Of a stretch of DNA of 64,000 bases, positions 1-64,000 are shown one piece after another. The first letter of the stretch is position 1. Every line of letters starts with the position of its first letter. A program made the translations under genes and the position numbers. This stretch comes from Roseomonas alba (lineage in GTDB: Bacteria; Pseudomonadota; Alphaproteobacteria; Acetobacterales; Acetobacteraceae), in NCBI RefSeq assembly GCF_019430885.1, contig NZ_JAHYBZ010000004.1:1-64000 (forward strand), written 5' to 3'. The notes beneath the pieces were generated by a model. It saw only the letters and a program-made list of their open reading frames with translations. It searched no databases and was not told the DNA's origin.

Positions 1-242
1 AGCGGGCGGGCGGGCGGACGCGGCGGGGGAGGTTCTTTGGCCATGCCAGATTATGGCCCGATTCGCCCTGCCCGTAACAGCCGGGCAGGTATGCGTGGGG
101 CAGGCCGATTTCGCGGCCGTGCGCCGAGGGCCAAAACTCATGTAATGCTCAGGCTCTGAGGGGGCTCTTAGAGGGCGTTGAATGGATATCAAAAAGGGGT
201 CCGGAACCTTGTGACAGAATTTCCGGAACGTTGTGGCTCGCT

Positions 243-318
243 ACAGCCAGGTCAAGGTTTCCGAAGGCCTTGCGGCCTTTGGCGGGGTAGGGTCCGGAGA
301 GGGGCAGAGCCCCTCTCC
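243..318. repeat. Half copy of the dispersed two-hairpin element
   Basis: This holds two successive hairpins. The first (B type) has arms 261-269 and 274-282 and reads CCGAAGGCC/GGCCTTTGG. The second (A type) has arms 296-305 and 309-318 and reads GGAGAGGGGC/GCCCCTCTCC around a 3-nt loop. The same pair occurs near 28.1 kb and 58.2 kb. The rest of bases 1-381 shows no convincing gene. It has one perfect 8-bp hairpin at 67-89 without a T-tract. Confidence 0.7.
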
Positions 319-381
319 ACCTCCGTCAGCGCCCCATCTTCGCGCGCGCGGGGCAGACTCCGCCCTGACCTGGCCAAGTAC

Positions 382-7628: not shown

Positions 7629-7760
7629 ACGGCAGAGCGGCAGAGGCTGGTTCCCCACAAGTGGCGCGCGGGGGAGAGGAGCTTTGCCGCTCTCGGAACC
7701 TCGTCCAAGCAAAGACCGAAGGGTCTTGCCAATGAGGGCGTCGCTTTCGCTGTCGCAGTC

Positions 7761-8028
7761 GGAGGGCCGCCGCCCCTCCAAAGCACCCCCGCCAAGTGCT
7801 TGGAGTACCTGGAACGCAATCTTCTGGTGAACAGCGTAACGCCCTTGCTACCCCCCAACGCCCTTGATGCGCAAAGGCGGGTCTCGGCGCCATGCCGGCA
7901 GCGGCGCCCGACGCCGAGTGGAGGTCTGCAAAGGCCCATCGGCCGATACGGGTTCCCATTCGCGTTGCGACGCACCGTGAATGGGTATCCGTGCTGGGGA
8001 AAGCTCGAGAGAGGCAAAGCCCCTCTCG
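7761..8028. repeat. Dispersed two-hairpin element (diverged full copy)
   Basis: The left end has an A-type hairpin (GGAGGG, 7761-7766, with CCCTCC, 7774-7779), then CGCCAAGTGCTTGGA containing CCAAG/CTTGG, a shortened B hairpin. The right end has CCCATTC and GAATGGG (about 7956-7987), then an A hairpin (arms 8006-8015 and 8019-8028, CGAGAGAGGC/GCCCCTCTCG, loop AAA). Thus both ends carry B then A in mirror order. A further hairpin AAGACC/GGTCTT lies at 7712-7727. The whole gap 7629-8053 between the FlaG-like gene and flaF is this element plus flanks; I see no gene in it. Confidence 0.55.
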
Positions 8029-8053
8029 ATCCCACAGCCCAGAACAAACGGCC

Positions 8054-23607: not shown

Positions 23608-23630
23608 GGGGAAGGGCTTTGCCCCTCTCC
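23608..23630. repeat. Solo A-type hairpin of the dispersed element
   Basis: GGGGAAGGGC and GCCCCTCTCC face each other around TTT, one mismatch in ten pairs. Only the A hairpin is present, with no adjoining B hairpin. It sits in the 205-bp gap between flhA and flhF, 60 nt before the flhF start. It could separate or attenuate expression of flhF-flhG within the operon. Confidence 0.55.
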
Positions 23631-27775: not shown

Positions 27776-27800
27776 GGGCGGCGCGGCGGCACGGAAGATT

Positions 27801-28158
27801 GGAGGGGCGCTGCCCCTCCTAGAGCATTTCCGGCGAACTTCCGTTCACCTGCAATGCTCTAGGTGTTTGTTTTTACGAGCATCTTCACCTGTCCGGATGA
27901 GTTCATCCAGACAGGATCTGCTCTAGCCACCCCGCCAAAGACCGAGAGGCCTCTGGACACCTTGAGTTGGTACCGGGCACGGCGGTTCGGCCAGGATCAT
28001 GCCGGGCGGCATGGGCACCGCCTGGGGGAAATTCCTGCGCTGCGCGCAGAGCGCCCGCGAACACTGCGACGGCCCGCCGGGCCAAACGCCATGTGACGGT
28101 TTCCAAAGGCCTCGGGCCTTTGGCGGGGTGAGTCCGAGAGGGGCAGAGCCCCTCTCGG
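27801..28158. repeat. Dispersed two-hairpin element with nested inverted repeats
   Basis: Left end: A hairpin GGAGGGGC/GCCCCTCC (27801-27819). Later comes a degenerate forward B copy beginning CCCCGCCAAAGACCGAG (about 27929). Right end: a perfect B hairpin CCAAAGGCC/GGCCTTTGG (28103-28123), then a perfect 11-bp A hairpin CCGAGAGGGGC/GCCCCTCTCGG (28134-28158). Two other inverted repeats sit inside the left part. CTAGAGCATT/AATGCTCTAG lies at 27819-27862. GAGCA with CTGTCCGGATGA and its partner arms lies at 27877-27923. These inner repeats look like a different repeat family inserted into the element. No gene is seen between 27776 and 28167. Confidence 0.75.
27819..27876 (+). terminator. Probable terminator after the 135-residue gene
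   Basis: The perfect 10-bp inverted repeat CTAGAGCATT/AATGCTCTAG is followed by GTGTTTGTTTTTA. The T-rich run after a stable stem fits intrinsic termination of the gene ending at 27775, though the hairpin loop is long (24 nt) and the sequence also belongs to the repeat cluster. Confidence 0.4.
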
Positions 28159-28167
28159 TTCCACAGT

Positions 28168-29469: not shown

Positions 29470-29492
29470 CCGCGCCTCGACCGGCGCCACGG

Positions 29493-32927: not shown

Positions 32928-32963
32928 TTCCGGAGGGGAATGCCGGAGGGGCTCTGCCCCTCC
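32928..32963. repeat. Half copy of the dispersed two-hairpin element
   Basis: A short hairpin ATTCC/GGAAT (from 32928) stands in the B position. It is followed by a perfect A hairpin GGAGGGGC/GCCCCTCC (32945-32952 and 32956-32963) with loop TCT. It begins 20 nt after the second ompW stop, between convergent genes, where it could end both transcripts. Confidence 0.6.
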
Positions 32964-34492: not shown

Positions 34493-34563
34493 GGGGTCTT
34501 CTCCGTCGGAGCAGGAACCGGACCCAATGCGGCAGCGCATCCCGTTTGGTTGCCGGAGCGGCC

Positions 34564-34639: not shown

Positions 34640-34739
34640 TGAGCGGAGATAAGCCATGGGCAGGCGCGGTTGGCAAGGGCGGCCTTGCGGCGCCGCGTCG
34701 GCCCTGTTGTGATAGCCGCGCAATCGGCGGCAGGCGACG

Positions 34740-45729: not shown

Positions 45730-45797
45730 CGCGAAGCCGATCAGCAGCGGTGCCGCGAGGGCGAGGATCAGCAGCGCCGCTTCGATCCGCCCCGCCT

Positions 45798-46721: not shown

Positions 46722-46917
46722 GGCGTTCCTCCCTGGTGCCGGACAGGCGCCGAGACTGCCATGCGTGCGATGCATCGCGCCACCCGCGAGGCAGGATGGC
46801 GACGAATTCCACCACCGCGGAGGCGGCGGAGCGGATATACTGAGACTCGGCACGGCGAAAGCCGGGCCCGCTCGGTTGCCCGTGCCGCACGAAATTGGGT
46901 CACGCCGGAGCACCCCC

Positions 46918-47343: not shown

Positions 47344-47412
47344 CCGCCCGTCCGATACCCCCCTGGGCACTCCCCCTCACCCGCCCTAGTCTCGCGGCCG
47401 AGGAGGACAACC

Positions 47413-48630: not shown

Positions 48631-48635
48631 GGACC

Positions 48636-49445: not shown

Positions 49446-49652
49446 GGCGGCTCGCTTCCGGAGGGAAACCCCCGGATGCGTGACGATCCCGTGGGCATGA
49501 GGCTTGGGCGGGCGGCGTGCGTGCCGCCCGCGCCGACGTCGCCTTGCCGAAAAGACATCCTCGCTAAAGTTCCGCCGCCCCGACCCGGTGTGCTACGCCT
49601 GCGCCCGCCGGGCGGCCCGTTGCCGTCTCTAGAGTTGGAGCGGAACGCGAGC

Positions 49653-50342
49653 GTGGACGGATCTCACGACGGGCAGGCTGTGGTGCTGGTTGATACCAAG
49701 GACTGCGGCGGGCCCGAGACCTTCGCCGAGGCCCATGCCACCGCACCCATTACCCGCCTGGTGGCAGAGGTCGCCACGCAATGCCCCGGTGAACGCATCA
49801 CCCTGGGCGAGATGGGCGAGGCCTTCGGGGACCGCGCCTTCGGCCTGCTGATCCTGCTGCTGTGCCTGCCGGGCCTGTTGCCGGGCATGGCCTCGGTCTT
49901 CGGCTTGCCGATGCTGATCCTCGGCATCCAGATGGGCCTTGGGTTCCACAAGCCGAAATTGCCGGCCTTCATCGCCCGGCAGTCGCTGAAGCGGTCCGAC
50001 CTGCTGCGCCTGACGCCGGGGTCCACCACCCGCGTCTCGCGGGCCATTGCGAAGATCGAACGGTGGGTGCGGCCACGCCCCGGCGTCTTCACGGGTGCCC
50101 TCGCCGACAAGGCGGTGGGCTGGCTGACCGCCTATGCCGCGGTGATGCTGATCCTGCCCGGGCCTGGTACCAACGGGCCACCGGCCTTCGGCGTCATCGT
50201 CATGGCTCTCGGCGTGGTGGAGAATGACAGCAAGGTGGTCGGCATCGGCATGCTGCTGACCCTGCTGGGGAACCTCTTCGCCACAGGGGTGCTGGTCGCC
50301 CTCGCCTGGTTCGGCATGGAAGCCCTCGGCTACGTCATGTAA
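49653..50342 (+). CDS. ExoD-type exopolysaccharide synthesis membrane protein
   Basis: The product is 229 residues. The N-terminal region has ERITLGEMGEAFGDRAFGLL, and about four membrane helices carry the ExoD motifs LLCLPGLLPGMASVFGLPM and LILPGPGTNGPPAFGVIVMA. ExoD affects exopolysaccharide synthesis in rhizobia by an unknown mechanism. GTG 49653 is used since upstream codons to 49476 are Pro-rich and unlike the family; no ATG lies before the conserved part. The cobalamin riboswitch begins 43 bp after its stop. Confidence 0.8.
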   Translation: MDGSHDGQAVVLVDTKDCGGPETFAEAHATAPITRLVAEVATQCPGERITLGEMGEAFGDRAFGLLILLLCLPGLLPGMASVFGLPMLILGIQMGLGFHKPKLPAFIARQSLKRSDLLRLTPGSTTRVSRAIAKIERWVRPRPGVFTGALADKAVGWLTAYAAVMLILPGPGTNGPPAFGVIVMALGVVENDSKVVGIGMLLTLLGNLFATGVLVALAWFGMEALGYVM

Positions 50343-50384
50343 CGGATGGACGCGACGCGGGCGGCCGGACTAGGGTCCGCCCAT

Positions 50385-50576
50385 GCGCCGGTGGCCCGAA
50401 AGGGCTGAAACGGGAATGCGCGACGCGGTGACCACCGCCAATCCGCAGCTGCCCCCGCAACTGTAGGCGACGGAGACGGCCCCATGTGCCATTGCGCCCC
50501 CTTCGGGCGCGAGAAGGCGGGGCCGGACAGCGGGCTGACCCCCGCCCGTCGCGAGCCAGGAGACCGGCCGGCGCAG
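50385..50576 (+). promoter_or_regulatory. Cobalamin (AdoCbl-type) riboswitch
   Basis: The conserved landmarks occur in order: CGGTGGCCCGAAAGGG, CTGAAACGGGAATGCG, AATCCGCAGCTGCCCCCGCA (the B12 box area), CAACTGTAGGCGACGG, GAAGGCGGGGCCGGAC, then the 3' B12 box GAGCCAGGAGACCGGCC. This is a clear cobalamin riboswitch, ending about 160 nt before the btuB-like start, so it should lower receptor expression when B12 is plentiful. Confidence 0.95.
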
Positions 50577-50737
50577 ATGTTGTCTCGCGCGTGCCGGGCG
50601 GGGAGCACCGGCGCAACGGACCCAGGTCTGTACCGGTATCCGGTGCCTACCTCCGTCATGCGAGCACGACGCAAGCCCGCCCCGGCCGCTTCGCGGCGCC
50701 GGGGCAGAACGCGGACCGTGCAACGGAGGGACACCGG

Positions 50738-52741
50738 ATGAAATCCCGGATCCTCGCCTTGATCGCCCTTGCCCCATGCAGCCCCCTTTGGGCCCCCGCC
50801 ATGGCCCAGGAGGTGCAGACCACCACCGCCCTGCCCGACATGGTCGTGACCGCAACGCGCGTCCCGACCCCGCGGGACCGGATACCGGCCCCGGTCACCG
50901 TCATCGACCGGCAGATGATCCAGGAGAATGGCTACGTCACCCTGGCCGATGCGCTGGCCACCGTGCCGGGCTTCCGGCTGGTGCAGTCGGGCGGGCTCGG
51001 CCAGATCGCCTCGGGCTTCGCGCGCGGGGCCAATGCGCGCCAGGTCCTGGTGCTGATGAATGGGGTGCCGGTGAACGACCCCTCCGACCCCAACGGCGCG
51101 TTCAATTTCGGCAATGAATTGCTCGGCGACATCGAGCGCATCGAGGTGGTGCGCGGGCCGGTGTCGTCGCTGTACGGGTCCGCGGCGATCGGCGGCGTGG
51201 TGAACCTCATCACCCGCTCCGCCCCGGCGGACCGTGTCGCCGCGCCGTATTTCGAGGCCGCCGGCGGGTCGAATTCCACCGTGCGCGGCTTTGCCGGGAT
51301 CGGCGGGACCATCGGCATGGTGGACTACCAGATCACCGGCCAGGGCCTGTCCACCCGCGGGTCCAACGCCATGGCGCCGCGCTTCTACCAGAATGGCGGC
51401 GAACTCGACGGGCTGCGGTCGGCCATCGTCACCGCGCGGCTGGGCCTGACGGTGGGCGAGACCAATCCGGGCGAGATCTTCGGCCGCACCCGCGTCGAGG
51501 GCCTGATCCGCGGCCGCCAGAACACGGTCGGGCTGGACGACGTGCCGAATGACGACCCGAACTACACGGGCAACGACGATTCCTGGTTCGGCTACGTGCG
51601 GACGGCAACCGACCTGTTCGGCGGGGCCTGGACGACGGGCGTCACCATCTCCGGCACCCACAACCGGCGGCGCTACACGAACTTCCCCGATCCGGGGAAT
51701 CCGTATTCCAGCGCCGACGACCTCTATCGTGCCAATCGCCGGGCCGCGTCATGGGACAACACGTTGCGCCTGCCCGACGCCGGCGTGCTGACGGACGTGG
51801 TCATGCTGTTCGGCGGCCAGTGGGACAAGGAGACCGCCGACAGCGCCAGCGGGTCCGAGTTCTTCCGCACCACGGTCGATGCTTCGCAACGGTCCGGCGC
51901 CGGCTATGCCTCGATCCAGGGGCGCTTGTTCGACCGGCTCGATCTGACCGGCGGCGTCCGTTACGACGGGCCGCAAGGCTTCGATGGCTTCACGAGCTGG
52001 CGCCTGGGCGCGGTGCTGGCGTTGCCGGAAATCTCCTCCCGCCTGCGGGCTGCGGCCGGCACGTCGTTCAAGGCGCCGTCGCTGTTCCAGCGCTTCGGCG
52101 TCATCACCGGCTTCTTCCAGGGCAACCCGAACCTCCGGCCGGAGGACGCCTTCGCCTGGGAAGCCGGGATCGAGACCGACATCGGGTCCTGGATGACCGT
52201 CTCGGCGGTGTATTTCGACAGCCGGATCAACAACCTCATCAACTACGACCAGACCTTCACCACGCTGATCAACGTGGACAGCGCGCGCATCCGCGGCGGC
52301 GAATTCGCCCTGACGCTGCGGCCGACGGACTGGTTCTCGATGACCGGGGCCTGGACGGTGCAGGAAGCGCAGGACCGGACCACCGACCAGCCCCTGCCGC
52401 GCCGGCCACGCAACGTCGCCAGCCTGACCATGCGCTTCGCCGCGCCGCTGCCCTGGGACGGGCCGGCCAATGCGCGCATCGTGGTGGTGCCGGAGGTGCT
52501 CTACACCGGCGCATCGCCGGAAGGCGCCTTCGCCCGGTACAACGACGACGGGACCTCGATCCCCGTCGCCGGCAAGAACGACGCCGGCACGGTGGTGAAC
52601 CTGACGGCGACGGTGCCGATCCTGGAACAGCTCGCGGGCTTCGTGGAGTTCCGGAACCTCGGCAATTCGCGCTTCGAACCGGCGAACGGGTTCGTGATCC
52701 CGGGGCGCACCGCGGTGGCGGGGCTGCGCGGGACGTTCTGA
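50738..52741 (+). CDS. btuB: TonB-dependent vitamin B12 receptor (BtuB-like)
   Basis: The 667-residue protein has a signal peptide (ILALIALAPCSPLWAPAMA) and a TonB box (DMVVTATRVP). The plug domain has QVLVLMNGVPVNDP and IERIEVVRGPVSSLYGSAAI then GGVVNLIT, and a 22-strand barrel ends in LRGTF with terminal Phe. The cobalamin riboswitch directly upstream and the tonB, adenosyltransferase and metH genes 6 kb away support B12 as the ligand. RBS GGAGGG precedes ATG 50738. A repeat element follows 54 bp after the stop. Confidence 0.93.
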   Translation: MKSRILALIALAPCSPLWAPAMAQEVQTTTALPDMVVTATRVPTPRDRIPAPVTVIDRQMIQENGYVTLADALATVPGFRLVQSGGLGQIASGFARGANARQVLVLMNGVPVNDPSDPNGAFNFGNELLGDIERIEVVRGPVSSLYGSAAIGGVVNLITRSAPADRVAAPYFEAAGGSNSTVRGFAGIGGTIGMVDYQITGQGLSTRGSNAMAPRFYQNGGELDGLRSAIVTARLGLTVGETNPGEIFGRTRVEGLIRGRQNTVGLDDVPNDDPNYTGNDDSWFGYVRTATDLFGGAWTTGVTISGTHNRRRYTNFPDPGNPYSSADDLYRANRRAASWDNTLRLPDAGVLTDVVMLFGGQWDKETADSASGSEFFRTTVDASQRSGAGYASIQGRLFDRLDLTGGVRYDGPQGFDGFTSWRLGAVLALPEISSRLRAAAGTSFKAPSLFQRFGVITGFFQGNPNLRPEDAFAWEAGIETDIGSWMTVSAVYFDSRINNLINYDQTFTTLINVDSARIRGGEFALTLRPTDWFSMTGAWTVQEAQDRTTDQPLPRRPRNVASLTMRFAAPLPWDGPANARIVVVPEVLYTGASPEGAFARYNDDGTSIPVAGKNDAGTVVNLTATVPILEQLAGFVEFRNLGNSRFEPANGFVIPGRTAVAGLRGTF

Positions 52742-52794
52742 GGGCGTTCGGGGGAGTTGCCCCATGAGCGCAGGCATAGCGCAGTGGGGGTGTC

Positions 52795-53047
52795 GGGAAG
52801 GCGTTTGCCCCTCCCCCCCTGCCTTGGCGGCAGTGCCGCCAAGCCCACCAAGGCCGAAAGGCCTTAGGAAACCTCGGCTTGGCACCGGGCATCGCGGGCA
52901 GAAAGCGCGCCCAAATCCGCAATTGCGCACAAAGCGCGATGCGAGGGATGCAGCATGCCTCCCCTGCCCGGCGCCAGCTATCCGGCTTTCCGAATGATCC
53001 ATCATATGGCGGAACGGAATCGGAGGGACAGACCCCTCCGATTCCGT
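52795..53047. repeat. Dispersed two-hairpin element (full copy)
   Basis: Left end: imperfect A hairpin GGGAAGGC with GCCCCTCCC (from 52795), an extra perfect hairpin CTTGGCGGC/GCCGCCAAG (52823-52843), then B hairpin AAGGCC/GGCCTT (52850-52865). The following text, GGAAACCTCGGCTTGGC and CCGGGCATCGCGGGCAG, recurs nearly unchanged at 58.2 kb. Right end: B-position hairpin CCGAATGAT/ATCATATGG (about 52990-53009), then a perfect 14-bp A hairpin ACGGAATCGGAGGG/CCCTCCGATTCCGT (53014-53047). The gap 52742-53214 holds no gene; about 170 bp after the element lead into the hlyD-like gene. Confidence 0.7.
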
Positions 53048-53214
53048 CCCGGGGCCATGACCATCGCAGGTTTCCGCCACTGCCGGGCTTGGCCGCACGA
53101 TCGCCCGGATCCGCGACGGCGCGTCCGGCGGGCGCCATCGCATCCTCTTGCACTGCCGCAAAGCGCCCACTGATGCGATAGCTATGAGATGCTGCGCCAC
53201 AGCCAGGCACCGAG

Positions 53215-54288
53215 ATGACACGACCTTCCACGCGTACGATCCTTCTTCTGCTGCTGCTCCTGATCGCCGGGGGCGGCGCCTGGGCCGCTTGGCAGGCCTT
53301 CCGGCCGGCCGGGCTGCCGCTGGGCTTCGCCCGCGGCAATGGCCGGATCGAGGGGGTGGAGCTCGATGTCTCCACCAAGATCGCCGGGCGCATCGCCGAT
53401 ATCCTGGTGAATGAGGGCGACCTGGTCGCCGCCGGCCAAGTGGTGGCGCATATGGACACCGCCACGCTGGAAGCGCAGCTGCGCGAGGCCCAGGCCCAGT
53501 TGCGGCGCGCCGAGATCGCCATCGAAACGGCCAATGCCCTGGTCACCCAGCGTCAGGCGGAACATACCGCTGCCGAGGCGGTTGTCGCCCAGCGCGACGC
53601 GCAGCTCATCGCCGCCCAGCGCCGGCTGGCGCGCACCGAGGAGCTCGCCTCGCGCGGCAACGCCCCGATCCAGACCCTGGACGATGACCGCGCCAGCTAT
53701 GAAGGCACGCGCGCCGCGCAAAGCGCCGCTCGCGCCCAGGTCGCCGCGGCCGATGCGGCGATCGGGTCCGCCCGGTCGCAGGTGGTCAGCGCCCAGGCGG
53801 CCGCCGAGGCCGCGCGCGCGACCATCCAGCGCATCCAGGTCGATATCGACGACAGCGCGCTGAAGGCCCCGCGCGCCGGTCGCGTGCAATTCCGCATCGC
53901 CCAGCCCGGCGAGGTGGTCGCGGCCGGCGGGCGCGTGCTGAACCTGGTGGACCTCACCGACGTCTACATGACCTTCTTCCTGCCGACCGTGGACGCCGGC
54001 CGCGTCGCGCTGGGATCGGACGCCCGGATCATCCTCGACGCCGCGCCGCAATACGTCATCCCGGCGACGATCTCGCTGGTCTCCGACGTCGCGCAATTCA
54101 CCCCGCGCACGGTGGAGACCGAGCAGGAACGGCTGAAGCTGGTCTTTCGCATCCGCGCGCGCATCGATCCGGCGCTGCTGCGCGAGCATGTCAGCCAGGT
54201 GAAGACCGGCCTGCCGGGCATGGCTTATGTCCGGCTCGACCGCGATGCGGAATGGCCCGCCAACCTGCAGGTGCGGCTGCCGCAATGA
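53215..54288 (+). CDS. HlyD family membrane-fusion protein (YhiI-like)
   Basis: This 357-residue periplasmic adaptor has one N-terminal membrane anchor ([18 protein letters not shown]). A lipoyl-like half ([39 protein letters not shown]) is followed by a long Ala/Gln-rich coiled coil (about 80-220), and the second lipoyl half contains [20 protein letters not shown]. It links an inner-membrane ABC exporter to the outer membrane. It overlaps the RbbA-like gene by 4 nt (ATGA). Confidence 0.93.
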
Positions 54289-57002
54289 CCGCGCCGATCG
54301 CGCGGCTGGAAGGCGTCGGGCTGCGCTATGGCCGGACGGTCGCGCTGGATGACGTGGCGCTCGACATCCCCGCCGGCGTCATGGCGGGGCTGATCGGGCC
54401 GGATGGGGTGGGGAAGTCGTCCCTTCTCGCGCTCGTCTCTGGCGCGCGGGCGGTGCAGGCGGGCCGCGTCACGGTGCTGGGCGGCAGCATGGCTGATGCG
54501 CGGCATCGCGACGCGGTCGGGCCGCGCATCGCCTATATGCCGCAGGGCTTGGGGAAGAACCTTTATCCGACGCTGTCGGTCTTCGAGAATATCGACTTCT
54601 TCGGGCGCCTGTTCAGCCAGGATCGCGCGGAACGTGAGCAGCGCATCGCCGATCTGGTCGCAGCAACCGGGCTGGCGCCCTTCGTGGATCGCCCGGCGGG
54701 CAAGCTGTCGGGCGGCATGAAGCAGAAGCTCAGCCTGTGCTGCGCGCTGATCCATGACCCGGAACTGCTGATCCTCGACGAGCCGACGACCGGCGTCGAT
54801 CCATTGTCGCGCCGGCAATTCTGGGAACTGATCGGCCGCATCCGCGCCGAGCGTCCGGGCATGAGCGTGCTGGTCGCCACCGCCTACATGGAGGAAGCGG
54901 CACGCTTCGACTGGCTCGCCGCCATGGATGGCGGGCGGGTCCTCGCGACCGGCGCGCCGACGGAATTGTTGGCGCAGACCGGCACCGAGACACTGGAGGC
55001 CGCCTTCATCGCCCTGCTACCCGAGGCGAAGCGCGCCGGCCACGAAGCAGTGCACCGCCCCCCCTTCGCTTCCCCGGATGGCGAGGCACCGGCGATCGAG
55101 GCGCGCGGGTTGACCATGCGCTTCGGCGACTTCACCGCGGTCGATCATGTCAGCTTCCGTATCCGCCGCGGCGAGATCTTCGGCTTCCTCGGGTCCAATG
55201 GCTGCGGCAAGACAACGACGATGAAGATGCTCACCGGCCTGCTGCCGGCGAGCGAGGGCGAAGCCTTCCTCTTCGGCGCGCCGGTCGATGCCACCAATCT
55301 CGATACGCGGCGGCGCGTCGGCTACATGTCACAGGCCTTCTCGCTCTACACCGAGCTGACGGTGCGGCAGAACCTGGTGCTGCATGCGAAGCTGTTCGGC
55401 CTGCCGGCCTCGGCCATCCCGGACCGCGTGCAGGCCATGGCGGATCGCTTCGGCCTCAGCGCCATCATGGACACGCTGCCGGATGCGCTGCCGCTCGGGC
55501 AACGGCAGCGGCTTTCGCTGGCCGTCGCCATGATCCACGGGCCGGAGATGCTGATCCTCGACGAGCCGACCTCGGGCGTCGATCCGATCGCGCGCGACGA
55601 GTTCTGGCGCATCCTGATCGAGCTCTCGCGCCGCGACCGCGTGACGATCTTCATCTCGACCCACTTCATGAACGAGGCGGAGCGCTGCGACCGCATCTCG
55701 CTCATGCATGCGGGCCGCGTGCTGATCAGCGACACGCCGGCCGCGATCGTCGCGCAATCCGGGGCCGCGACACTGGAGGAAGCCTTCATCCACCATCTGG
55801 AGGAAGCCGCCGGCCCGGTGACGGCGCCCGCCCCTGCCCCGGTCGCCACCGTCGCGCCCGGCCATGCGTCGCGCCGCGGCTTCGACCTTCGGCGTTTGCT
55901 GTCCTATTCGCGGCGGGAGGCGCTGGAACTGCGGCGCGATCCGGTGCGCGCGACGCTCGCGCTGCTCGGCAGCATGATCCTGATGATCATCATGGGCTAT
56001 GGCATCAGCCTCGATGTCGAGAACCTGACCTTCGCCGTGCTCGACCGCGACCAGACGACGACCAGCCAGGATTACGCGCTGAACATCGCCGGTTCGCGCT
56101 ACTTCCTCGAACGTCCGCCGATCACCGACCATGCCGATCTCGACCGCCGCATGGAAGCCGGCGAGATATCGCTGGCCATCGAGATCCCGCCCGGCTTCGG
56201 GCGGGACGTCGCGCGCGGCCGCGCCGTCGAGGTCGGCGCCTGGATCGACGGCGCCATGCCGTCCCGCGCGCAGACCATCCGCGGCTATGTCCAGGCGATG
56301 CATCAGCAATGGGTGACGCAGCGCGCCGAGCGCAACGCCAATGCCAGCGCCGTCACGCCCTTCAGCATCGAGATCCGCTACCGCTACAATCCCGATGTCC
56401 GCAGCCTGGTCGCCATGGTGCCCGCGGTCATCCCGATCCTGCTGATGCTGATCCCGGCCATGCTCACCGCCCTGTCCGTGGTGCGGGAGAAGGAGCTGGG
56501 TTCGATCGTCAATTTCTACGTCACGCCGGTGACGCGGCTGGAATTCCTGATGGGCAAGCAATTGCCCTACCTGCTGCTCGGCATGCTCAACTACCTGCTG
56601 CTGGTGGGCTTGGCGCTGACGCTGTTCGGCGTGCCGCTCAAGGGCAGCTTCTGGGCGCTGACGGCGGCGACGGCGCTGTATCTCTGCGCCTCGACGGCGC
56701 TGGGGCTGCTGGCCTCGACCTTCCTGCGCAGCCAGGTCGCGGCGACCTTCGGCACGGCGGTGATGACCATCCTGCCGGCGGTGCAGTTCTCCGGCGTCAT
56801 CAACCCGGTATCATCCCTGGAAGGCATCGGCGCGCTGATCGGCCACATCTATCCGACGGCACATTACGTGACGATCGCGCGGGGCACCTTCTCGAAATCC
56901 CTGGGCTTCGCCGATCTGCAACCCTCCTTCCTGCCGCTGCTGATCGCCGGCCCGCTGCTGATCGCGGTCAGCGCCATGCTGCTGCGCAAGCAGGAACGTT
57001 GA
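54285..57002 (+). CDS. rbbA: RbbA-type double-ATPase ABC transporter
   Basis: The 905-residue protein has two ATPase domains and a permease in one chain. ABC1 (about 1-240) has Walker [10 protein letters not shown], signature LSGGMKQKL and [18 protein letters not shown]2 (about 270-510) has Walker [10 protein letters not shown] and [14 protein letters not shown], with a degenerate signature [12 protein letters not shown] typical of RbbA/YhiH. The C-terminal ABC-2 permease (about 540-905) has six helices. RbbA in E. coli is linked to ribosomes, and in operons with HlyD and YhhJ it acts as a putative exporter. ATG 54285 overlaps the preceding gene. Confidence 0.9.
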
Positions 57003-57003
57003 G

Positions 57004-58125
57004 ATGCGCCTGTCCCACATCGCGACCCTCGGCGTGAAGGAGCTGCGCAGCCTGCTGCGCGACCCGATCCTGCTGGTGCTGATCATCTATTCCTTCACCT
57101 TCGCCATCTACGCGGCGGCGACGGCAATGCCGGAGACCCTGTCCCGCGCCTCCATCGCCATCGTGGACGAGGACCGCTCCCCGGTCGCCCAGCGCATCAT
57201 CGACGCCTTCCAGCCGCCCTATTTCCTGCCGCCCGCCATGATCACCCAGTCCGAGATGGACGAGCGCATGGATGATGGCCGCGACACCTTCGCCGTCGAC
57301 ATCCCGCCGCATTTCCAGCGCGACCTGCTGGCCGGCCGCCAGCCCGCCATCCAGCTCAACGTCGACGCCACGCGCATGAGCCAGGCCTTCACCGGCAGCG
57401 GCTACATCCAATCCATCATCAGCGAGGAGATCGTCGCCTTCCTCCAGCGCTATCGCGCCGTGGACGTGCCCGCGATCGGCCTCGCGCTGCGCGCCCGCTT
57501 CAACCCTGTGCTTGAGGAAGCCTGGTTCGGTGCGGTGATGGAGGTGATCAACCAGATCACCATGCTGTCCATCGTCCTCGCTGGCGCCGCCCTGATCCGG
57601 GAACGCGAGCACGGCACGATCGAACACCTGCTCGTCATGCCCGTGACACCCTTCGAGATCATGACCGCCAAGGTCTGGGCCATGGCGCTGGTGGTGCTGG
57701 TCGCGACCGCGGTCGCCATGACGGTGGTCGTGCAGGGCGCGCTCGGCGTACCGATCCAGGGATCGGTGCCGCTGTTCCTCGCAGGGGCCGCGGTACATGT
57801 CTTCGCCACCACGGCGATGGGCATCTTCCTGGGCACCGTCGCACGGTCCATGCCGCAATTCGCTCTGCTGCTGATCCTGGTGCTGCTGCCGCTGGAGATG
57901 CTCTCGGGCGGCACCACACCACGGGAGAGCATGCCCACGCTGGTCCAGGTGGTGATGGAAGCCGCGCCGACCACGCATTTCGTCCTGCTGGCGCAGGGGA
58001 TCCTGTACCGCGGCGCGGGGTTCGACGTGGTGTGGCCGCATTTTGCAGCACTGGCCGCGATCGGGGCGGCGCTGTTCGGGTTCGCGCTGGCGCGGTTCAG
58101 GGCGACGATCGGGCAGATGGCGTGA
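57004..58125 (+). CDS. ABC-2 type permease (YhhJ-like)
   Basis: This 373-residue inner-membrane protein has one N-terminal helix (LLVLIIYSFTFAIYAAATAM), a large periplasmic loop and five C-terminal helices. The ABC-2 motif LIREREHGTIEHLLVMPVTP precedes the second helix. It is homologous in layout to the C-terminal part of the RbbA-like protein, with which it probably forms a heterodimeric channel. It starts 1 bp after that gene. The 291-bp gap after its stop is a repeat element. Confidence 0.92.
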   Translation: MRLSHIATLGVKELRSLLRDPILLVLIIYSFTFAIYAAATAMPETLSRASIAIVDEDRSPVAQRIIDAFQPPYFLPPAMITQSEMDERMDDGRDTFAVDIPPHFQRDLLAGRQPAIQLNVDATRMSQAFTGSGYIQSIISEEIVAFLQRYRAVDVPAIGLALRARFNPVLEEAWFGAVMEVINQITMLSIVLAGAALIREREHGTIEHLLVMPVTPFEIMTAKVWAMALVVLVATAVAMTVVVQGALGVPIQGSVPLFLAGAAVHVFATTAMGIFLGTVARSMPQFALLLILVLLPLEMLSGGTTPRESMPTLVQVVMEAAPTTHFVLLAQGILYRGAGFDVVWPHFAALAAIGAALFGFALARFRATIGQMA

Positions 58126-58153
58126 GGTTCGCTGAGGGCTCGACTGTCGAATT

Positions 58154-58380
58154 GGAGGGGCGCCGCCCCTTCAAACCATCGCGCCAAAGGCCGAAAGGCC
58201 TTTGGAAACCTCAACCTGGCGCCGGGCATCGCTGGCAGAATGGGTGCCGAGACCCGCATTTGGGCACGAAGCGCGCTGCGCGGGCCGGCACGCCATCACG
58301 GCCCAATACCAGGTGCCTGCGGTCCAGGATGCCCAGCATCCTGGCAAGGTGAGGTCTGGAGAGGGGCGGCGCCCCTTTCC
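58154..58380. repeat. Dispersed two-hairpin element (best full copy)
   Basis: Left end: A hairpin GGAGGGGC/GCCCCTTC (58154-58172), then a perfect B hairpin CCAAAGGCC-GAAA-GGCCTTTGG (58184-58205) followed by GGAAACCTCAACCTGGC. Right end: a perfect hairpin CCAGGATGC/GCATCCTGG (58324-58344) in the B position, then A hairpin GGAGAGGGGC/GCCCCTTTCC (58358-58380). The order A-B at one end and B-A at the other makes a mirror-symmetric unit of 227 bp. It lies between the convergent permease and adenosyltransferase genes. Confidence 0.75.
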
Positions 58381-58416
58381 AGTCTTACCTTCGCGCTTGA
58401 ACAGCGCCGTCCGATC

Positions 58417-58971
58417 TCACCGCGTCGCCCCCGGCACCCACAGCACGTCACCTCCGGCCGCCGCGTTCAGGTGCCGCGACAACACGAACAGATGGTCCGA
58501 CAGCCGGTTGAGGTAGCGGATCACCGCCGGGTTCACCTCCTCCGCCCCGGCCAGCGCCACCACCAGCCGCTCTGCCCGCCGCACCACCGTGCGCGCCAGA
58601 TGCGCATGCGCCGCGCCGGGACACCCGGCCGGCAGCACGAAAGACCGCAGCGGCGGCAGCGCCGCATTCATCGCCGCGATCTCTGCCTCCAGCCGCGCGG
58701 ATTGCGTGTCGGCGACGCGCAGCCTCGCCCCGGCCTCGCCCGGCACGCAGAGATCCGCACCGACGTCGAACAGCTCGTTCTGGATGCGGGCAAGCATGGC
58801 ATCCGCCTCGCCTTCGGCATGCAGCCGCACCAGGCCGAGCGCGGCGTTCGCCTCATCCACCGTGCCGAAGGCCTCGATGCGCAGCGCGTCCTTGCGCAGG
58901 CGCGTGCCGTCGCCGAGCGAGGTCTCGCCCCCATCGCCCCCGCGCGTCGTGATGACGTCGAGCTTCACCAT
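58417..58971 (-). CDS. PduO-type cob(I)alamin adenosyltransferase
   Basis: This 184-residue enzyme shows the ATP-binding start TTRGGDGGETSLGDGTRLRK and the helix VDEANAALGLVRLHAE. It also has VLPAGCPGAAHAHLARTVVR with RRAERLVVALAG and YLNRLSDHLFVLSRHLN, all conserved in PduO/ATR enzymes. It adds the 5'-deoxyadenosyl group of ATP to reduced cobalamin, giving adenosylcobalamin. It is last in the leftward operon metH-CDF-tonB, 14 bp after tonB, which ties it to B12 uptake and use. Confidence 0.95.
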   Translation of the reverse strand: MVKLDVITTRGGDGGETSLGDGTRLRKDALRIEAFGTVDEANAALGLVRLHAEGEADAMLARIQNELFDVGADLCVPGEAGARLRVADTQSARLEAEIAAMNAALPPLRSFVLPAGCPGAAHAHLARTVVRRAERLVVALAGAEEVNPAVIRYLNRLSDHLFVLSRHLNAAAGGDVLWVPGATR

Positions 58972-58985
58972 CGCCTGGTCGTCTC

Positions 58986-60071
58986 CTATCGGCCGCGCCC
59001 GTCCTGCAGGCGGAAATGTACGGCCGTCGTCAGCGTCCCCGCCACCGGAAGGCCGGCGCGCGTTGCTGGGCGGAAGCGCCAGCGTTGCGCCGCCTCCAGC
59101 GCCGCGCGATCGAGGGCCGGAAAACCGGAGGTGAGGGCAACCTCCACCCGCGTCACCTGCCCATCCGGGGCGACGCTCACCGCCAGACGCACGACGCCTT
59201 CCTCTCCGCGGCGCCGCGCCTCGGCCGGGTAGTCCGGCGGGGCATTGCGGTAGCCGGGATCGGGACCTGGCGGCACCGCCGCGCCCAGAGCGAAGGCGCC
59301 GAGCGAACCTTCCGGCGTTGGCCCCTCTGCGCCGGCATCGAGCCGGATGGGGGCCTGGGATTGGCGCGCAGCCTGCTGCTGCCGCGGCTGGCTGGGTCGC
59401 TGCGCCGGCTGGGCCTGGGAGGACGGCTGGTCGGCGGGCGGCGGCAGTGGCGGCAACGGCAGGGCGTCGGCCGGGGTCTCCGGTGCTGCGGCAGTCTCGC
59501 GCGGCGTCTCCTCGGTCACGTCGGCGGGTTCGGGCGGAGGTGGCGGCGGCGCCGGGGCGGCTTCGGCCGGCGGAGCAGGCGGCGGCAGGAAGCCGTCTGG
59601 CGCGGGCGGCAGGGCCGCGACGTCAGGTGCCGCGGCCGGCGGGGGTGGATCCGGGACCACGCTTGGTGACGCAGGCGACAGCGCAGCAACATCGCGCGGT
59701 GCCTCGGCCGGCGCGGGCGGGGGCATGGGCGGTGGTGACGGCGGCGCAGCGGCCCGCGGTTCGGCCGGCGGCGCGGGCGGCGCCGGTGGCGCCGGCGGAA
59801 CCGGAGGCGCCGGGGGACTGGGTGTCTCCACAGCTTCAGCCGGTTCGGCGGATTCAGGCGTGGCGCCGCCGGCACGGGCCACGGTATCAGCGAAGACCAG
59901 GGTGACGCCGCCGGACTCGCCCGGCTCGTCCACAGGATCCGCCACCGGCCACAGGATCAGCGCCGCCATCAAGGCGCCATGCAGCAGCGCGGAACCCAGC
60001 AGCGCCATCCCCAGCCACCAGGTCGCGCCCCGCCCGGGGCGGGAGGTGGGGCTGCGCGGGGGCGCCTTCAC
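58986..60071 (-). CDS. tonB: Energy transducer TonB
   Basis: This 361-residue protein has one N-terminal inner-membrane helix (about 19-41; WWLGMALLGSALLHGALMAA). A very long Pro/Ala-rich periplasm-spanning segment (about 65-250) follows, and the C-terminal TonB domain has YPAEARRRGEEGVVRLAVSV and FPALDRAALEAAQRWRFRPA. It passes proton-motive energy to TonB-dependent receptors. No exbB/exbD are in the window. Its operon partners suggest service to the BtuB-like receptor at 50.7 kb. It overlaps the CDF gene by 4 nt. Confidence 0.93.
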   Translation of the reverse strand: MKAPPRSPTSRPGRGATWWLGMALLGSALLHGALMAALILWPVADPVDEPGESGGVTLVFADTVARAGGATPESAEPAEAVETPSPPAPPVPPAPPAPPAPPAEPRAAAPPSPPPMPPPAPAEAPRDVAALSPASPSVVPDPPPPAAAPDVAALPPAPDGFLPPPAPPAEAAPAPPPPPPEPADVTEETPRETAAAPETPADALPLPPLPPPADQPSSQAQPAQRPSQPRQQQAARQSQAPIRLDAGAEGPTPEGSLGAFALGAAVPPGPDPGYRNAPPDYPAEARRRGEEGVVRLAVSVAPDGQVTRVEVALTSGFPALDRAALEAAQRWRFRPATRAGLPVAGTLTTAVHFRLQDGRGR

Positions 60072-60970
60072 AGCACCGGCACGCCCTTCTGCTTGGCCTT
60101 GCCCTCGGGCTCGACATGGATGGTGATGACGGCGGTGTCGAGTTCGGCCTTCAGCGCGGCCTCGATGCGGTCGCAGATGTCGTGGGATTCGCGCACGGTC
60201 ATCGCGCCCGGCACCACCAGGTGGAACTCCAGGAAGGTGAAGCGGCCGGCATGGCGGGACCGCAGGTCATGGGCCTCGATCGCGCCGGCAGCCTGCTCGG
60301 CGACGATGGCGCGGATGCGGTCCATGGTGGCCGAGGGCACGGCCTCGTCCATCAGCCCGCCGACGCTTTCGCGCAGCAGGCGGAACCCGGAAAACAGGAT
60401 GTTGCCCGCGGTCAGGGCGGCCAGCAGCGGATCGAGCCACAGGGTCCCGGTCAGCGCCACCAGCCCGACGCCCACGATGACCCCGGCGGAGGTGACGACA
60501 TCCGACCAGAGATGGGCCGCATCGGCCAGCAGGGCCGGCGATCGCAGCCTTCGCCCGCGCCGCCCCAGATGCAGCGCCCATGCGGCATTCACCGCACTCG
60601 CCACGGCCGAGATGGCCAGGCCGATCCCCGCCTGTTCCGGCGCTCGGGGCATAAGGAAGGCGCCCCAGGCCTGATGCAGGATCAGCAGCGCCGCGACGAT
60701 GATCAGCGCGCCTTCGAGGACGGCGGAGAAATACTCCGCCTTGGCATGGCCATAGGGGTGGTTGTTGTCGGCCGGCAGGGCGGAATAGGTCACGGCGATG
60801 AGCGCGGCCACGGCAGCGGCCACGTTCACGATGCTCTCCAGCGCATCCGCGAGCAGCGCCACGCTGCCGGTCAGCCACCAGGCCACCGCCTTCAGCGCGA
60901 GCACCGCGATCGAAACCACGACGCTGCCGATGGCGAGCGTCGTGGCCCTGCCGAGCCTGCTTTCCGTCAT
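60068..60970 (-). CDS. Cation diffusion facilitator (CDF) family metal transporter
   Basis: This 300-residue protein has six membrane helices. The metal-site motif in helix 2 reads LLADALESIVNVAAA, that in helix 5 reads DAAHLWSDVVTSAGV (HxxxD), and a C-terminal cytoplasmic domain begins near residue 210. CDF proteins export Zn, Co, Fe or Mn by proton exchange. The metal cannot be fixed from sequence, but its place between metH (which needs Zn and cobalamin) and tonB makes Zn or Co plausible. ATG 60970 lies 24 bp after the metH stop. Confidence 0.92.
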   Translation of the reverse strand: MTESRLGRATTLAIGSVVVSIAVLALKAVAWWLTGSVALLADALESIVNVAAAVAALIAVTYSALPADNNHPYGHAKAEYFSAVLEGALIIVAALLILHQAWGAFLMPRAPEQAGIGLAISAVASAVNAAWALHLGRRGRRLRSPALLADAAHLWSDVVTSAGVIVGVGLVALTGTLWLDPLLAALTAGNILFSGFRLLRESVGGLMDEAVPSATMDRIRAIVAEQAAGAIEAHDLRSRHAGRFTFLEFHLVVPGAMTVRESHDICDRIEAALKAELDTAVITIHVEPEGKAKQKGVPVL

Positions 60971-60994
60971 GGGGGCGGGTTTACCGTCCCGGGG

Positions 60995-63900
60995 CTAGAC
61001 GGAGAAGTACTTCGCGCGCGGGTGATGCAGGACGATGGCGCTGGTCGATTGTTCCGGGTGCAGCTGCCATTCGTCGCTGATGGTCACGCCGACGCGCTCG
61101 GCCTTCAGCAATTGCAGCAGCGGCGCCTGGTCCTCCAGCCGCGGGCAGGCCGGGTAGCCGAAAGAATAGCGGCCGCCGCGGTAGCTTTGCTGCAACATGC
61201 GGTCCATGTCGCGGTCGTCCTGGGCGGCGAAACCCCATTCGGCGCGGATGCGCTTGTGGACGTATTCGGCCATGGCCTCCGCCATCTCGACCGACAGGCC
61301 GTGCAGGTAAAGGTAATCCTGGTAGCGGTTCTCCTCGAACCATTCGCGCGCCACGTCGGACGCCTTCTGGCCGACCGTGACGACCTGCAGGCCGATCACG
61401 TCGCGGCCGTCATCGATGTCGGTGACGAAATCGGCGATGCACTCGCCGTCCTCCTTGGGCTGGCGCGGCAGGGTGAAGCGGGCGGCCTCGGTGGTGCCGT
61501 CCTCCTCGAACAGGATCAGGTCGTTGCCCTGTCCCGCACACTTCCAATAGCCGTAGATCGCCTGGGGCTTGAGGATGTCCTGCTCGCCGGTGATGCGCAG
61601 CATGCGTTGCAGCACCGGGCGGAGCTCCTGCTTCGCCCAACCGAGGAAATCCTCCAGCGAGCGGCCCTGTTTCCGGAAGCCCCACTGGAACTGATACAGG
61701 CTGCGCTCGTTGATGAAGGGCACGACGGCCTTGGGCGCGGCCTCGATCACGCGGGCACCCCAGAAGGGCGGGGTCGGCGTCGTGGTCTCGGCATTCACAC
61801 GCCGGCGGCGGGCCTGGACGGTGTTGACGTCGACCGGCGCGAAGCCACGGGGATCGGCCTGGCCCAGCACACGCTTCTCGTTGCGCGCCTTGCCCGCACG
61901 CTTGGCCTGCAGGGCGGCGAGGTAGTCGTCGAAGCCATTGCCGACCACCTTGTCCATCAGATGCAGGCCGTCGAAGGCATCGCGCGCATAGGCAACGCGG
62001 CCCGTCGTGCCGTCCTTGGCATAGGCGCGGGTGCAGTCATCCTCGACATAGTTGCGCGTCAGCGCCGCACCGCCGAGCAGGACGGGGATGTCGAGCTCCT
62101 GCCGCGCCATTTCCTCGAGGTTCTCACGCATCACCACGGTGGACTTCACCAGCAGGCCGGACATGCCGATGGCATGCGCGCGATGTTCCTTCGCGGCCGC
62201 GACCATGTCGGCGAGCGGCACCTTGATGCCGAGATTGACGACCTTGTAGCCGTTGTTGGTGAGGATGATGTCGACCAGGTTCTTGCCGATGTCGTGCACG
62301 TCGCCCTTCACGGTGGCGAGCACGATCGTCCCCTTCTCCTGCCCCGCCACGCGTTCCATGAGCGGTTCCAGATAGGCGACGGCGGCCTTCATGGTCTCGG
62401 CAGATTGCAGCACGAAGGGGAGCTGCATCTTGCCCGCGCCGAACAACTCGCCCACCACCTTCATGCCGTCCAGCAGGATGTCGTTGATGATGGACAGCGG
62501 CGCGATGCCCTTCGCCAGCGCATCGGCCAGTTCGTCGTCCAGGCCCTTGCGGTCGCCATCGACGATGCGGTCCTTGAGGCGGCCCTCGACCGTCTCCGCC
62601 TTCTGCTTCTTCGCCGCATCCGCGGCCTTCCGGCCGGCGAAGATCTCCAGCATCTTCTGCAGCGGATCGTAGCCTTCGGACCGCCGATCGAAGATGAGGT
62701 CTTCCGCGACCTTCACCTCCTCGGGCGGGATCTGATGCAGCGGCTTGATCTTGGACACATGCACGATCGCGCCGGTCATGCCGGCCTTCACGGCATGGTC
62801 GAGGAACACGCTGTTCAGCACATGCCGCGCGGCCGGGTTCAGGCCGAAGGAGATGTTGGACAGGCCGAGGATGATCTGAATGTCCGGGAACTTATCCCGG
62901 ATCATGCGGATGCCCTCCAGCGTCCACAGGCCGAGCTTGCGGTCGTCCTCATTGCCCGTGGCGATGGTGAAGGTCAGCGGGTCGATCATCAGGTCCGACT
63001 GCGGCAACCCATGCTTGTCGCAGGCGAATTCCACCAGACGGGACGCGATGCGCAGCTTGTCCTCGGCGGTCTTGGCCATGCCGACCTCGTCGATGGTCAG
63101 CGCGATGACCGCCGTGCCGAACTTCTTCGCGAGGATCATGCGATCCGTCGCGGCCTTCTCGCCATCCTCGAAATTGATCGAGTTGATGATCGGCTTGCCG
63201 CCATGCAGCTTCAGCGCAGCCTCGATCACCGGCGTCTCGGTGGAATCGATGACCAGCGGCGCATTCACGGAGGAGGTGAAGCGGCGGATCACCTCGTTCA
63301 TCTCCGCCATTTCGTCGCGGCCGACGAAGGCGGTGCAGATGTCGAGGCTGTTCGACCCCTCCCCCACCTGTTCGCGCCCCATGGCGACGCAGCCATCCCA
63401 GTCATGCGCCGCCTGGCGTTCGCGCCAGGCCTTGGAGCCGTTGGCGTTGCAGCGTTCGCCGATGGAGAAATACGAATTCTCCTGCCGCAGCGAGACCGAG
63501 GTGTAGAGCGAGGCGACGGACGGGACCCAGAACGACTTGCGCGCGACCGGCGCGGGGCGGTGCGACGTGCCGCCGACCTTGCGCAGCATCGCATCCAGCG
63601 CGGCGATATGCGGCGTCGAGGTGCCGCAGCAGCCCCCGATCAGATTCACCCCGTCCTCGGTGACGAAACGCTCCATCCAGGTGGCGAGTTCCGCCGCGCC
63701 CAAGGGGTAATGCGTCTTGCCGTCCACCAGCTCCGGCAGGCCGGCATTGGGCTGGCAGGAGACGAGGCGCGGCCAGTTCTGCGACAGCCAGCGGACATGC
63801 TCGGCCATTTCCTGCGGGCCGGTCGCGCAGTTCAGGCCCATCAGGTCCACGTCCAGCGCGTGCGCGACCGTCGCCGCCGCGCCGATATCGGGGCCAACCA

Positions 63901-64000
63901 GCAGCGTGCCGGTCGTCTCGACCGTCACCTGCACGAAGATGGGGATGGAGGACTTAGCCTCGGCGCGCGCGATCTTGGCGGCGTTGACCGCGGCCTTGAT
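60995..64000 (-). CDS. metH: Cobalamin-dependent methionine synthase, N-terminal end outside window
   Basis: 1001 residues are present; roughly 150-200 N-terminal residues lie beyond base 64000. The homocysteine domain retains the zinc cysteines (GLNCATGP and IGGCCGTST). The folate domain (about 160-430) has IGERCNANGSKAWRER and NSINFEDGEKAATDRMI. The cobalamin domain has GDVHDIGKNLVDIIL, whose His ligates cobalt (about 567). The C-terminal activation domain ends RYSFGYPACPRLED. It transfers the methyl group of methyl-THF to homocysteine through cobalamin. The frame has no stop up to the window edge. Confidence 0.97.
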   Translation of the reverse strand: MKAAVNAAKIARAEAKSSIPIFVQVTVETTGTLLVGPDIGAAATVAHALDVDLMGLNCATGPQEMAEHVRWLSQNWPRLVSCQPNAGLPELVDGKTHYPLGAAELATWMERFVTEDGVNLIGGCCGTSTPHIAALDAMLRKVGGTSHRPAPVARKSFWVPSVASLYTSVSLRQENSYFSIGERCNANGSKAWRERQAAHDWDGCVAMGREQVGEGSNSLDICTAFVGRDEMAEMNEVIRRFTSSVNAPLVIDSTETPVIEAALKLHGGKPIINSINFEDGEKAATDRMILAKKFGTAVIALTIDEVGMAKTAEDKLRIASRLVEFACDKHGLPQSDLMIDPLTFTIATGNEDDRKLGLWTLEGIRMIRDKFPDIQIILGLSNISFGLNPAARHVLNSVFLDHAVKAGMTGAIVHVSKIKPLHQIPPEEVKVAEDLIFDRRSEGYDPLQKMLEIFAGRKAADAAKKQKAETVEGRLKDRIVDGDRKGLDDELADALAKGIAPLSIINDILLDGMKVVGELFGAGKMQLPFVLQSAETMKAAVAYLEPLMERVAGQEKGTIVLATVKGDVHDIGKNLVDIILTNNGYKVVNLGIKVPLADMVAAAKEHRAHAIGMSGLLVKSTVVMRENLEEMARQELDIPVLLGGAALTRNYVEDDCTRAYAKDGTTGRVAYARDAFDGLHLMDKVVGNGFDDYLAALQAKRAGKARNEKRVLGQADPRGFAPVDVNTVQARRRRVNAETTTPTPPFWGARVIEAAPKAVVPFINERSLYQFQWGFRKQGRSLEDFLGWAKQELRPVLQRMLRITGEQDILKPQAIYGYWKCAGQGNDLILFEEDGTTEAARFTLPRQPKEDGECIADFVTDIDDGRDVIGLQVVTVGQKASDVAREWFEENRYQDYLYLHGLSVEMAEAMAEYVHKRIRAEWGFAAQDDRDMDRMLQQSYRGGRYSFGYPACPRLEDQAPLLQLLKAERVGVTISDEWQLHPEQSTSAIVLHHPRAKYFSV

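Follow-up and report, generated by a model that had tools for sequence, protein, structure and literature searches.

A REP-like hairpin element at the gene ends of Roseomonas alba and other Acetobacteraceae, whose fold probably matters more than its sequence

Among the alphaproteobacterial intergenic elements with large palindromes are the rhizobial intergenic mosaic elements (RIME). Intrinsic terminators carry a T tail. For REP sequences and BIMEs of the GTAG and CGTC super-families, a location at gene ends and a construction from hairpin modules have been published (Di Nocera et al., 2013; PMC3733652), and the same authors give the CGTC repeats as missing in Acetobacteraceae (PMC3733652). 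RepRanger lists 1,369 REPs in Lichenicola cladoniae, a member of this family (PMC12306157); Roseomonas, Acetobacter and Rhodospirillales are not mentioned in the main text of that paper. In the bidirectional terminators of Bacillus cereus, AU-GC accounts for 79% of the pair switches, and GU was the intermediate in 89.5% of those for which it is known (PMC5381666). For the Allomyces elements, as cited in work on sponge mitochondria (PMC2800124), flanking duplications are absent and the route is not known.

The element described here lies in a 64,000-nt stretch of Roseomonas alba DNA (contig NZ_JAHYBZ010000004.1, positions 1 to 64,000), which is called the window below. In the aligned copies the repeat unit is about 230 bp long and nearly mirror-symmetric, running from hairpin A through a linker, hairpin B, a core, hairpin B' and a complementary linker to hairpin A'. 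The A hairpin of these copies is either of the type TTGGAGGGGC-TTT-GCCCCTCCAA or of a longer CCGGAGAGGGGC type, and the A-B linker reads ACCACCCC or ACCTCACCCC. B reads CCAAAGGCC-GAAA-GGCCTTTGG and is followed by AAACC, the core takes up about 110 nt, and B' has the frame CCA......TGG with variable inner letters. The B'-A' linker (GGGGTGGT or GGGGTGAGGT), which is complementary to the A-B linker, then leads into A'. Because the two linkers are mutually complementary, either strand could form a junction bearing B, the core and B', with A and A' outside. Alignment A1 holds 20 of the 33 aligned copies (11 outside 195-245 nt were dropped, and L015 and L030 were removed by hand). The 20 model copies are 229-239 nt long and the 11 excluded ones 252-363 nt, several of the latter with extra sequence in B' or the core. 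In A1, A and A' have a GGGGC core in common, and the outer core stem TGGCGC..GCCA is partly kept in the family according to A1 and the core-stem pair counts of 20 copies, the core stem of Roseomonas alba being only partly paired in these 20. In some species the core is a long stem C; 5 of the 11 copies listed for the stem check have such a central stem of 20 to 32 positions, some with mismatches.

A covariance model, R1, was built from 20 copies of the Roseomonas alba genome, among them the copy at 58154, which serves as reference and has these parts:

58149..58381, + strand: reference full copy, matched by R1 with 211 bits on + and 59 bits on -
58152..58174: hairpin A, a 10-position stem with one mismatch and loop GCC (hairpin listing)
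58184..58205: hairpin B, CCAAAGGCC-GAAA-GGCCTTTGG
58206..58323: core (alignment A1, core-stem pair counts)
58324..58344: hairpin B', CCAGGATGC-CCA-GCATCCTGG, with the geometry of B and different letters
58352..58386: hairpin A', here extending into linker and flank, 16 positions with loop GGC

This copy stands between convergent genes (57004-58125 on + and 58417-58971 on -, by home-made gene calls), and its fold is far more stable than expected by chance (z = -6.2 for 58149-58381; none of 200 dinucleotide shuffles was equally stable). The energy model favours pairing of A with A' in several copies, and the RNAalifold covariation term for the 20 copies of A1 is small (-3.2 of -79.7 kcal/mol).

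The other places in the window were assigned as follows:

7758..8031, - strand: full, degenerate copy, R1 138 bits, left side degenerate
27798..28160, - strand: full copy split by a nested repeat, R1 75 bits for 27911-28160 and 18 bits for the detached left A hairpin at 27798-27829
52793..53044, + strand: full, diverged copy, R1 119 bits for 52821-53042; on the other strand 34 bits for 52793-53044
199..321, - strand: partial copy with one end, R1 48 bits, consisting of a B-type hairpin (261-282), linker and A-type hairpin (296-318)
32945..32963: lone A hairpin, marginal for R1 (E 0.001-0.003)
23608..23630: A-like imperfect hairpin seen in the sequence, below the threshold of the hairpin listing, at most a candidate member of the family

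All four full copies named by the initial annotation (7761-8028, 27801-28158, 52795-53047 and 58154-58380) were thus recovered by R1, with 75-211 bits. Its three partial copies fared unequally: 243-318 is a true half with 48 bits and 32928-32963 contains the marginal lone A hairpin, but 23608-23630 has no R1 match at E ≤ 0.01. The copy at 7758-8031 lies between convergent genes by the home-made calls, the left one of which (7269-7628) is low-scoring. The one at 27798-28160, with end hairpins at 28103-28123 and 28134-28158, is flanked by convergent genes (27368-27775 on +, 28168-29490 on -), and the one at 52793-53044 lies between tandem genes (50801-52741 and 53215-54288).

Several other features were seen besides. 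An unrelated insert of about 109 bp with CTAG/TA-flanked inverted ends occupies 27818-27926 of the window, inside the 27798-28160 copy; at least four more copies of it occur in 1.25 Mb (C12:48859, 144042, 171478 and 494646), and it has the look of a small transposon. A different repeat family, with copies of about 135 nt that are 90-94% alike, is found in the same genome at C12:330613, 333627 and 459091 and at C23:109251, and a tandem repeat with a 60-bp period at C12:695968-696329. A GC-rich stretch (L071:4580-4750), without R1 match, recurs several times in some congeners. A cobalamin riboswitch (window 50372-50586, +) and a SAM-I/IV riboswitch (window 34536-34644, -) score above the Rfam gathering score. 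In some copies of the element, for example L024 and L021, an extra A/B end (TTCCGCAGCGGAAG...TCAGGAAGGCC...) stands about 35 nt outside the unit, giving mosaic arrays.

The genome comprises 6.33 Mb in 28 contigs (assembly 99.2% complete). When R1 was run over the whole of it, 150 of 9,678 candidates were scored; among the matches listed, all are full length, with E at most 6.3e-36. With the 58154 copy as query, 40 of 40 candidates scored, of 506, were places in its own genome. Over 1,252,870 bases, R1 gave 210 matches on both strands at E ≤ 0.01, the best 150 of which merge to 89 distinct loci, 77 of them at least 200 nt long; extrapolating, about 450 copies per genome would be expected. The initial annotation had proposed a covariance-model scan and named fewer than about ten hits, or no enrichment between genes, as refuting; the 89 loci in 1.25 Mb, 86 of them between genes, clearly speak against such a refutation. 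A strict descriptor of four hairpins with perfect stems, which misses most real copies, found 24 units in 2.50 Mb, none of them in G021 and G189. A single first-order random resample of every sequence gave 0.

Copies were also found outside this genome. All 23 genomes examined of the genus (own included) match R1 at E ≤ 1e-3, as against 0 of 16 genomes from other families at the same threshold. Matches to the left-half pattern fall in 46 stretches, from Neoroseomonas terrae, eburnea, lacus and oryzicola, Roseomonas sp. HF4, Rhodovarius crocodyli and one Acetobacteraceae MAG. Within the Acetobacteraceae, R1 at E ≤ 1e-6 has matches in 107 of 200 genomes, which represent 59 of 102 genera. From the whole class, 289 alphaproteobacterial genomes were drawn, at least four of them Acetobacteraceae; here the own genome matched and three others belonging to two other families, that is 3 of at most 285 outside the family; 11 candidates were scored per genome in the family search and 7 in the class search. 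Judged from these matches, about half of the Acetobacteraceae genomes sampled have the folding plan, with its letters rewritten. The copy density found by R1 varies among genomes. In G189, R1 finds two loci only in 400 kb, one of them cut by the end of the stretch, which may mean a lower copy number in that genome or diverged copies that escape the model. One copy used as query had no match in the plasmid collection. The B half of the element was seen in four viral-labelled IMG/VR contigs (L236-L239).

The position and pairing statistics rest on the best 150 of the 210 R1 matches, merged to 89 loci, and the gene calls are home-made. By these calls, 86 of the 89 loci overlap genes by less than 10%, as compared to 6.6% of 5000 random windows, and the mean overlap is 1.2% versus 86%, which bears out the intergenic location proposed initially. 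The neighbours of the 89 loci are convergent in 45 cases, tandem in 41 and divergent in 3, against a background of 142 convergent, 540 tandem and 153 divergent among 835 neighbouring gene pairs with a gap ≥ 0. When only intergenic regions of at least 200 bp are considered, 44 of 67 convergent, 35 of 128 tandem and 3 of 45 divergent ones bear a copy, the element itself lengthening its gap. Element ends that face the 3' end of a gene lie close to it (53 of 131 within 30 nt, median 38), those that face a gene start less so (14 of 47, median 92), and between tandem genes 28 of 41 copies are nearer to the end of the upstream gene. Plain strong hairpins in copy-free intergenic regions of 40-250 bp show the same order as element occupancy: 29 of 50 convergent, 61 of 252 tandem and 6 of 103 divergent regions have one (coding control 13 of 300). 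In window positions 44001-64000, T-tail terminators are no commoner than expected by chance (3 found, 6.3 expected), and the outer flank of the element shows no T run at 101 ends, in disagreement with the T-tract criterion of an intrinsic terminator. The economical reading, drawn from position, is that gene ends in this genome may often be closed by T-less hairpins, the element being a large, symmetric version of these.

The hairpins themselves are strongly kept. Over 89 copies, 2,674 of 2,889 hairpin cells are Watson-Crick, and pairing exceeds the expectation for independent arms in each hairpin: 93% versus 62% in B', 92 versus 71 in A', 92 versus 81 in A and 93 versus 89 in B; the copies are paralogous and non-independent, and covariance-model matches favour paired copies. 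Divergence from the consensus is 35% in unpaired and 14% in paired columns of these copies. Among the 50 of 89 copies in which both arms are complete, B' has 24 different arms and B equals B' in only nine. Because B and B' usually differ, the conserved thing is the local hairpins of each end and not long terminal inverted repeats. The initial annotation had taken the compound ends as such repeats, which this count does not bear out for most copies; its other statement, that each end folds on itself, agrees with the hairpins kept at each end. The pairing extends to other genomes: Watson-Crick pairs make up 553 of 567 hairpin cells there, and two or more pair types are seen at 23 of 36 pairs. 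This set of 16 copies (seven from congeners, nine from other genera) consists of the best scorers of their genomes in an alignment fitted to the model; it comprises the better strand each of 16 out of 19 loci (L091-L100, L207-L215), with L091 (own genome), L092 (match near a contig end) and L096 (very like L097) omitted. At one orthologous site, the congeners G021, G015 and G010 hold clearly related copies. In each of these the 22-bp C stem pairs completely, with four pair positions varying among them, and their A, B and B' hairpins together show three single-arm mismatches.

Orthologous sites were compared for ten elements, giving 38 site-by-congener pairs; R1 was applied to 18, and the other 20 were judged by eye and from hairpin listings. 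At E ≤ 1e-6, R1 finds 4 of its 18 pairs occupied and 14 not. At C12:800410, all eight congeners hold the plan by eye and hairpin listing, some without a listed B or B' and G003 with an internal deletion; because the letters are so different among them, replacement or repeated arrival is likely. At C12:819335, by contrast with such occupied sites, G013 is empty, with about 16 bases between two stop codons. The copy at C12:129904 sits where the tandem genes of G002 are apparently 4 bp apart, provided that the start codon was read correctly, and this counts against a barrier role because a strong terminator would be costly at such a place. Altogether 24 of the 38 pairs were judged empty. A hairpin of score ≥ 9 is present in 15 of these 24 gaps (in one of the 15 within coding sequence), including 6 of 6 at C12:809883 and 3 of 5 at C12:819335, and the other nine have no strong hairpin.

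Such varying occupancy is what a MITE-like miniature transposon would produce, whose A...A' ends would be recognised by some transposase and whose hairpins would be by-products, and it is the part of the initial MITE suggestion that stood. The core letters common to the copies and the GGGGC core common to A and A' also fit, as do two closely similar pairs of copies, one in G009 (90.6% over 223 nt, stopping at the A hairpins) and one in G021 (89% over 248 nt). Nevertheless, we consider this origin unlikely. Apart from the rarity of identical B and B' and the very different letters under one plan at C12:800410, no full-length pair of copies reaches 88% identity in the own 1.25 Mb. No excess of direct flanking repeats or target duplication was seen in 29 copies with both ends anchored, a test of low power; the congeners are too distant for clean sites to be read. 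Nor does any pair of element ends enclose an evident transposase gene in 1.25 Mb, by an incomplete pattern that caught 41 left and 38 right ends; this test gave four wider end pairs with unannotated contents.

As the hairpin modules, the paired arrangement and the gene-end location are those of published REPs (PMC3733652), the element might also be a REP/BIME family moved by a RAYT (TnpA_REP, Y1) transposase. This is disfavoured to the point of having hardly any probability. The profile Y1_Tnp (PF01797; RAYT) has no match in the own genome (the control matched in 5 of 14), and it occurs in 24 of 200 family genomes, 13 of which are element-positive, which is no association given 107 of 200 overall. 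Within 6 nt of the hairpin foot, the tags GTAG and CGTC occur in 2 and 8 of 322 cases in 89 copies, where chance would give 1.8% and 8.6%. RVT_1 reverse transcriptase is likewise absent from the own genome by profile search, with controls matched.

Where the transcript is the selected molecule, G.U is expected to outlast A.C. In the four hairpins of the tandem copies, read along the transcripts, G.T and A.C mismatches number 26 and 30 (p 0.69), and these 56 mismatches leave room for weak selection on RNA, or for transcription of the tandem copies in both directions. Over all 89 copies the four hairpins have 65 G.T and 66 A.C. When the weaker linker and core pairs are included, tandem copies show 95 G.T and 92 A.C, and convergent copies, in model orientation, 142 and 68, an excess due in part to modelled core pairs that most copies have as G.T. 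Cells that deviate from the commonest pair type are of transition type in 198 cases and of transversion type in 148 (the copies are related, so these are not independent events). Because there is no G.U bias along transcripts and double changes are often transversional, the mismatch pattern would speak for DNA, or for a structure that works on both strands, which is a weak-to-moderate argument.

These counts bear on two further explanations. Firstly, the copies could be ordinary bidirectional transcription terminators, RNA hairpins under selection that are spread locally by recombination, with nothing special about the DNA. Of the initial suggestion of a terminator module, the positional part stood: the copies lie 3' of genes with a convergent preference and in the arrangement order of plain hairpins, the A hairpin is near stop codons (the 53 of 131 ends above), and plain hairpins fill 15 of the 24 orthologous gaps judged empty. 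The 142 G.T against 68 A.C in convergent copies, core pairs counted, would also agree with it. We doubt this explanation all the same, since the flank lacks a T run, the four hairpins show no G.T excess along transcripts, and the common 230-bp core exceeds the needs of a terminator. In addition, switches in the Bacillus cereus terminators described are mostly AU-GC via GU (PMC5381666), as opposed to the 198 transition- and 148 transversion-type cells here.

Secondly, the copies might be largely neutral palindromic debris, the arms of which are kept complementary by template switching within hairpins during replication and which survive behind genes where they are harmless. Changes of both arms by transition and transversion, equal G.T and A.C counts in the hairpins, and the lack of any half-changed pair in the 22-bp C stem of the three orthologues, despite three in their A, B and B' hairpins, would all follow from such a process, and purifying selection would by itself keep the copies out of divergent (promoter) regions. 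However, 59 of 102 sampled genera have the whole hairpin plan, together with complementary linkers and similar spacers, and correction hairpin by hairpin leaves the linker pairing and the spacing unexplained. We therefore consider neutral debris quite improbable.

We favour the reading that this is a gene-end element which has probably been overlooked, and that its fold counts for more than its letters. More fully, it would be a REP-like folded-DNA element, old in Acetobacteraceae and now and then copied to new gene ends, which probably acts as a two-way transcript-end barrier; function and route are what we infer from sequence patterns, and we give the whole a probability of about 0.5. Its working part would be folded DNA, or a structure serving both strands. 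Copying would be a rare event that takes in the whole block from A to A', leaves no obvious target duplication and uses neither a Y1 (RAYT) transposase nor an RVT_1 reverse transcriptase. At its sites the element may end transcripts from both sides, either by termination without a T tail or by protection of 3' ends, and it could stand where relatives have a simple hairpin. Besides the site C12:129904, what counts against this reading are the nine empty gaps lacking a strong hairpin, the only partly paired core stem, the preference of the energy model for A with A' in several copies, the small covariation term and the two loci in 400 kb of G189. A bolder form of this reading, which we put forward tentatively and hold to be rather improbable, is that of a self-keeping folded-DNA element: its plan would persist across much of the family while the letters are rewritten on both arms without RNA-type intermediates or a known mobility enzyme, and it would be one of the main two-way structures at gene ends in genomes where T-tailed terminators are not depended on.

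Hundreds of copies per genome, as extrapolated, would rank the element among the commonest non-coding features of Roseomonas alba. If it ends or protects transcripts, it would help to explain how transcripts are finished without T-tailed terminators in these GC-rich genomes. Should it be maintained as DNA, its many orthologous and paralogous copies would make it a natural system for studying both-arm hairpin rewriting and the spread of repeats without a known enzyme.

The initial remark that no named family has such a build agrees with the searches: Rfam gave no match for the loci L005, L006, L009 and L024 up to E 1 and none at the window copies at gathering score, and in the open-licence literature no paper describing the element was found by titles and abstract openings. 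By description it resembles RIME, which are likewise alphaproteobacterial and intergenic with large palindromes. The sponge mitochondrial RHE or double-hairpin elements share with it the repeated intergenic hairpins, but they are organellar, and their stems are described as conserved and their loops as varying, the reverse of B' here (PMC2800124). With the bidirectional terminators of Bacillus cereus it has in common hairpins between convergent genes and compensated stem changes, but the switches reported there are mostly AU-GC via GU, which does not hold for the element hairpins, and the latter have no T run (PMC5381666). Some of the Lichenicola cladoniae REPs of RepRanger may be hairpins of the element, although the REPs presented there are single palindromes and no compound element is described among them (PMC12306157).

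The likeness to REP/BIME sequences, as these are characterised by Di Nocera et al. (PMC3733652), comprises short high-copy hairpins, located mostly between convergent or unidirectional genes, that often occur as pairs with structured spacers and also form clusters. The initial REP-like suggestion is upheld by dispersal, hairpin modules, mosaic arrays and gene-end position. The element departs from the published REP/BIME families by the lack of tag and RAYT, by its plan of about 230 bp with complementary linkers, and by its strongly rewritten stem letters. In the wide sense of multi-copy, extragenic and palindromic (89 loci in 1.25 Mb, 86 with less than 10% gene overlap) it is REP-like, and, as judged from its sequence features, we file it as a REP-like element in this sense, outside the GTAG and CGTC super-families.
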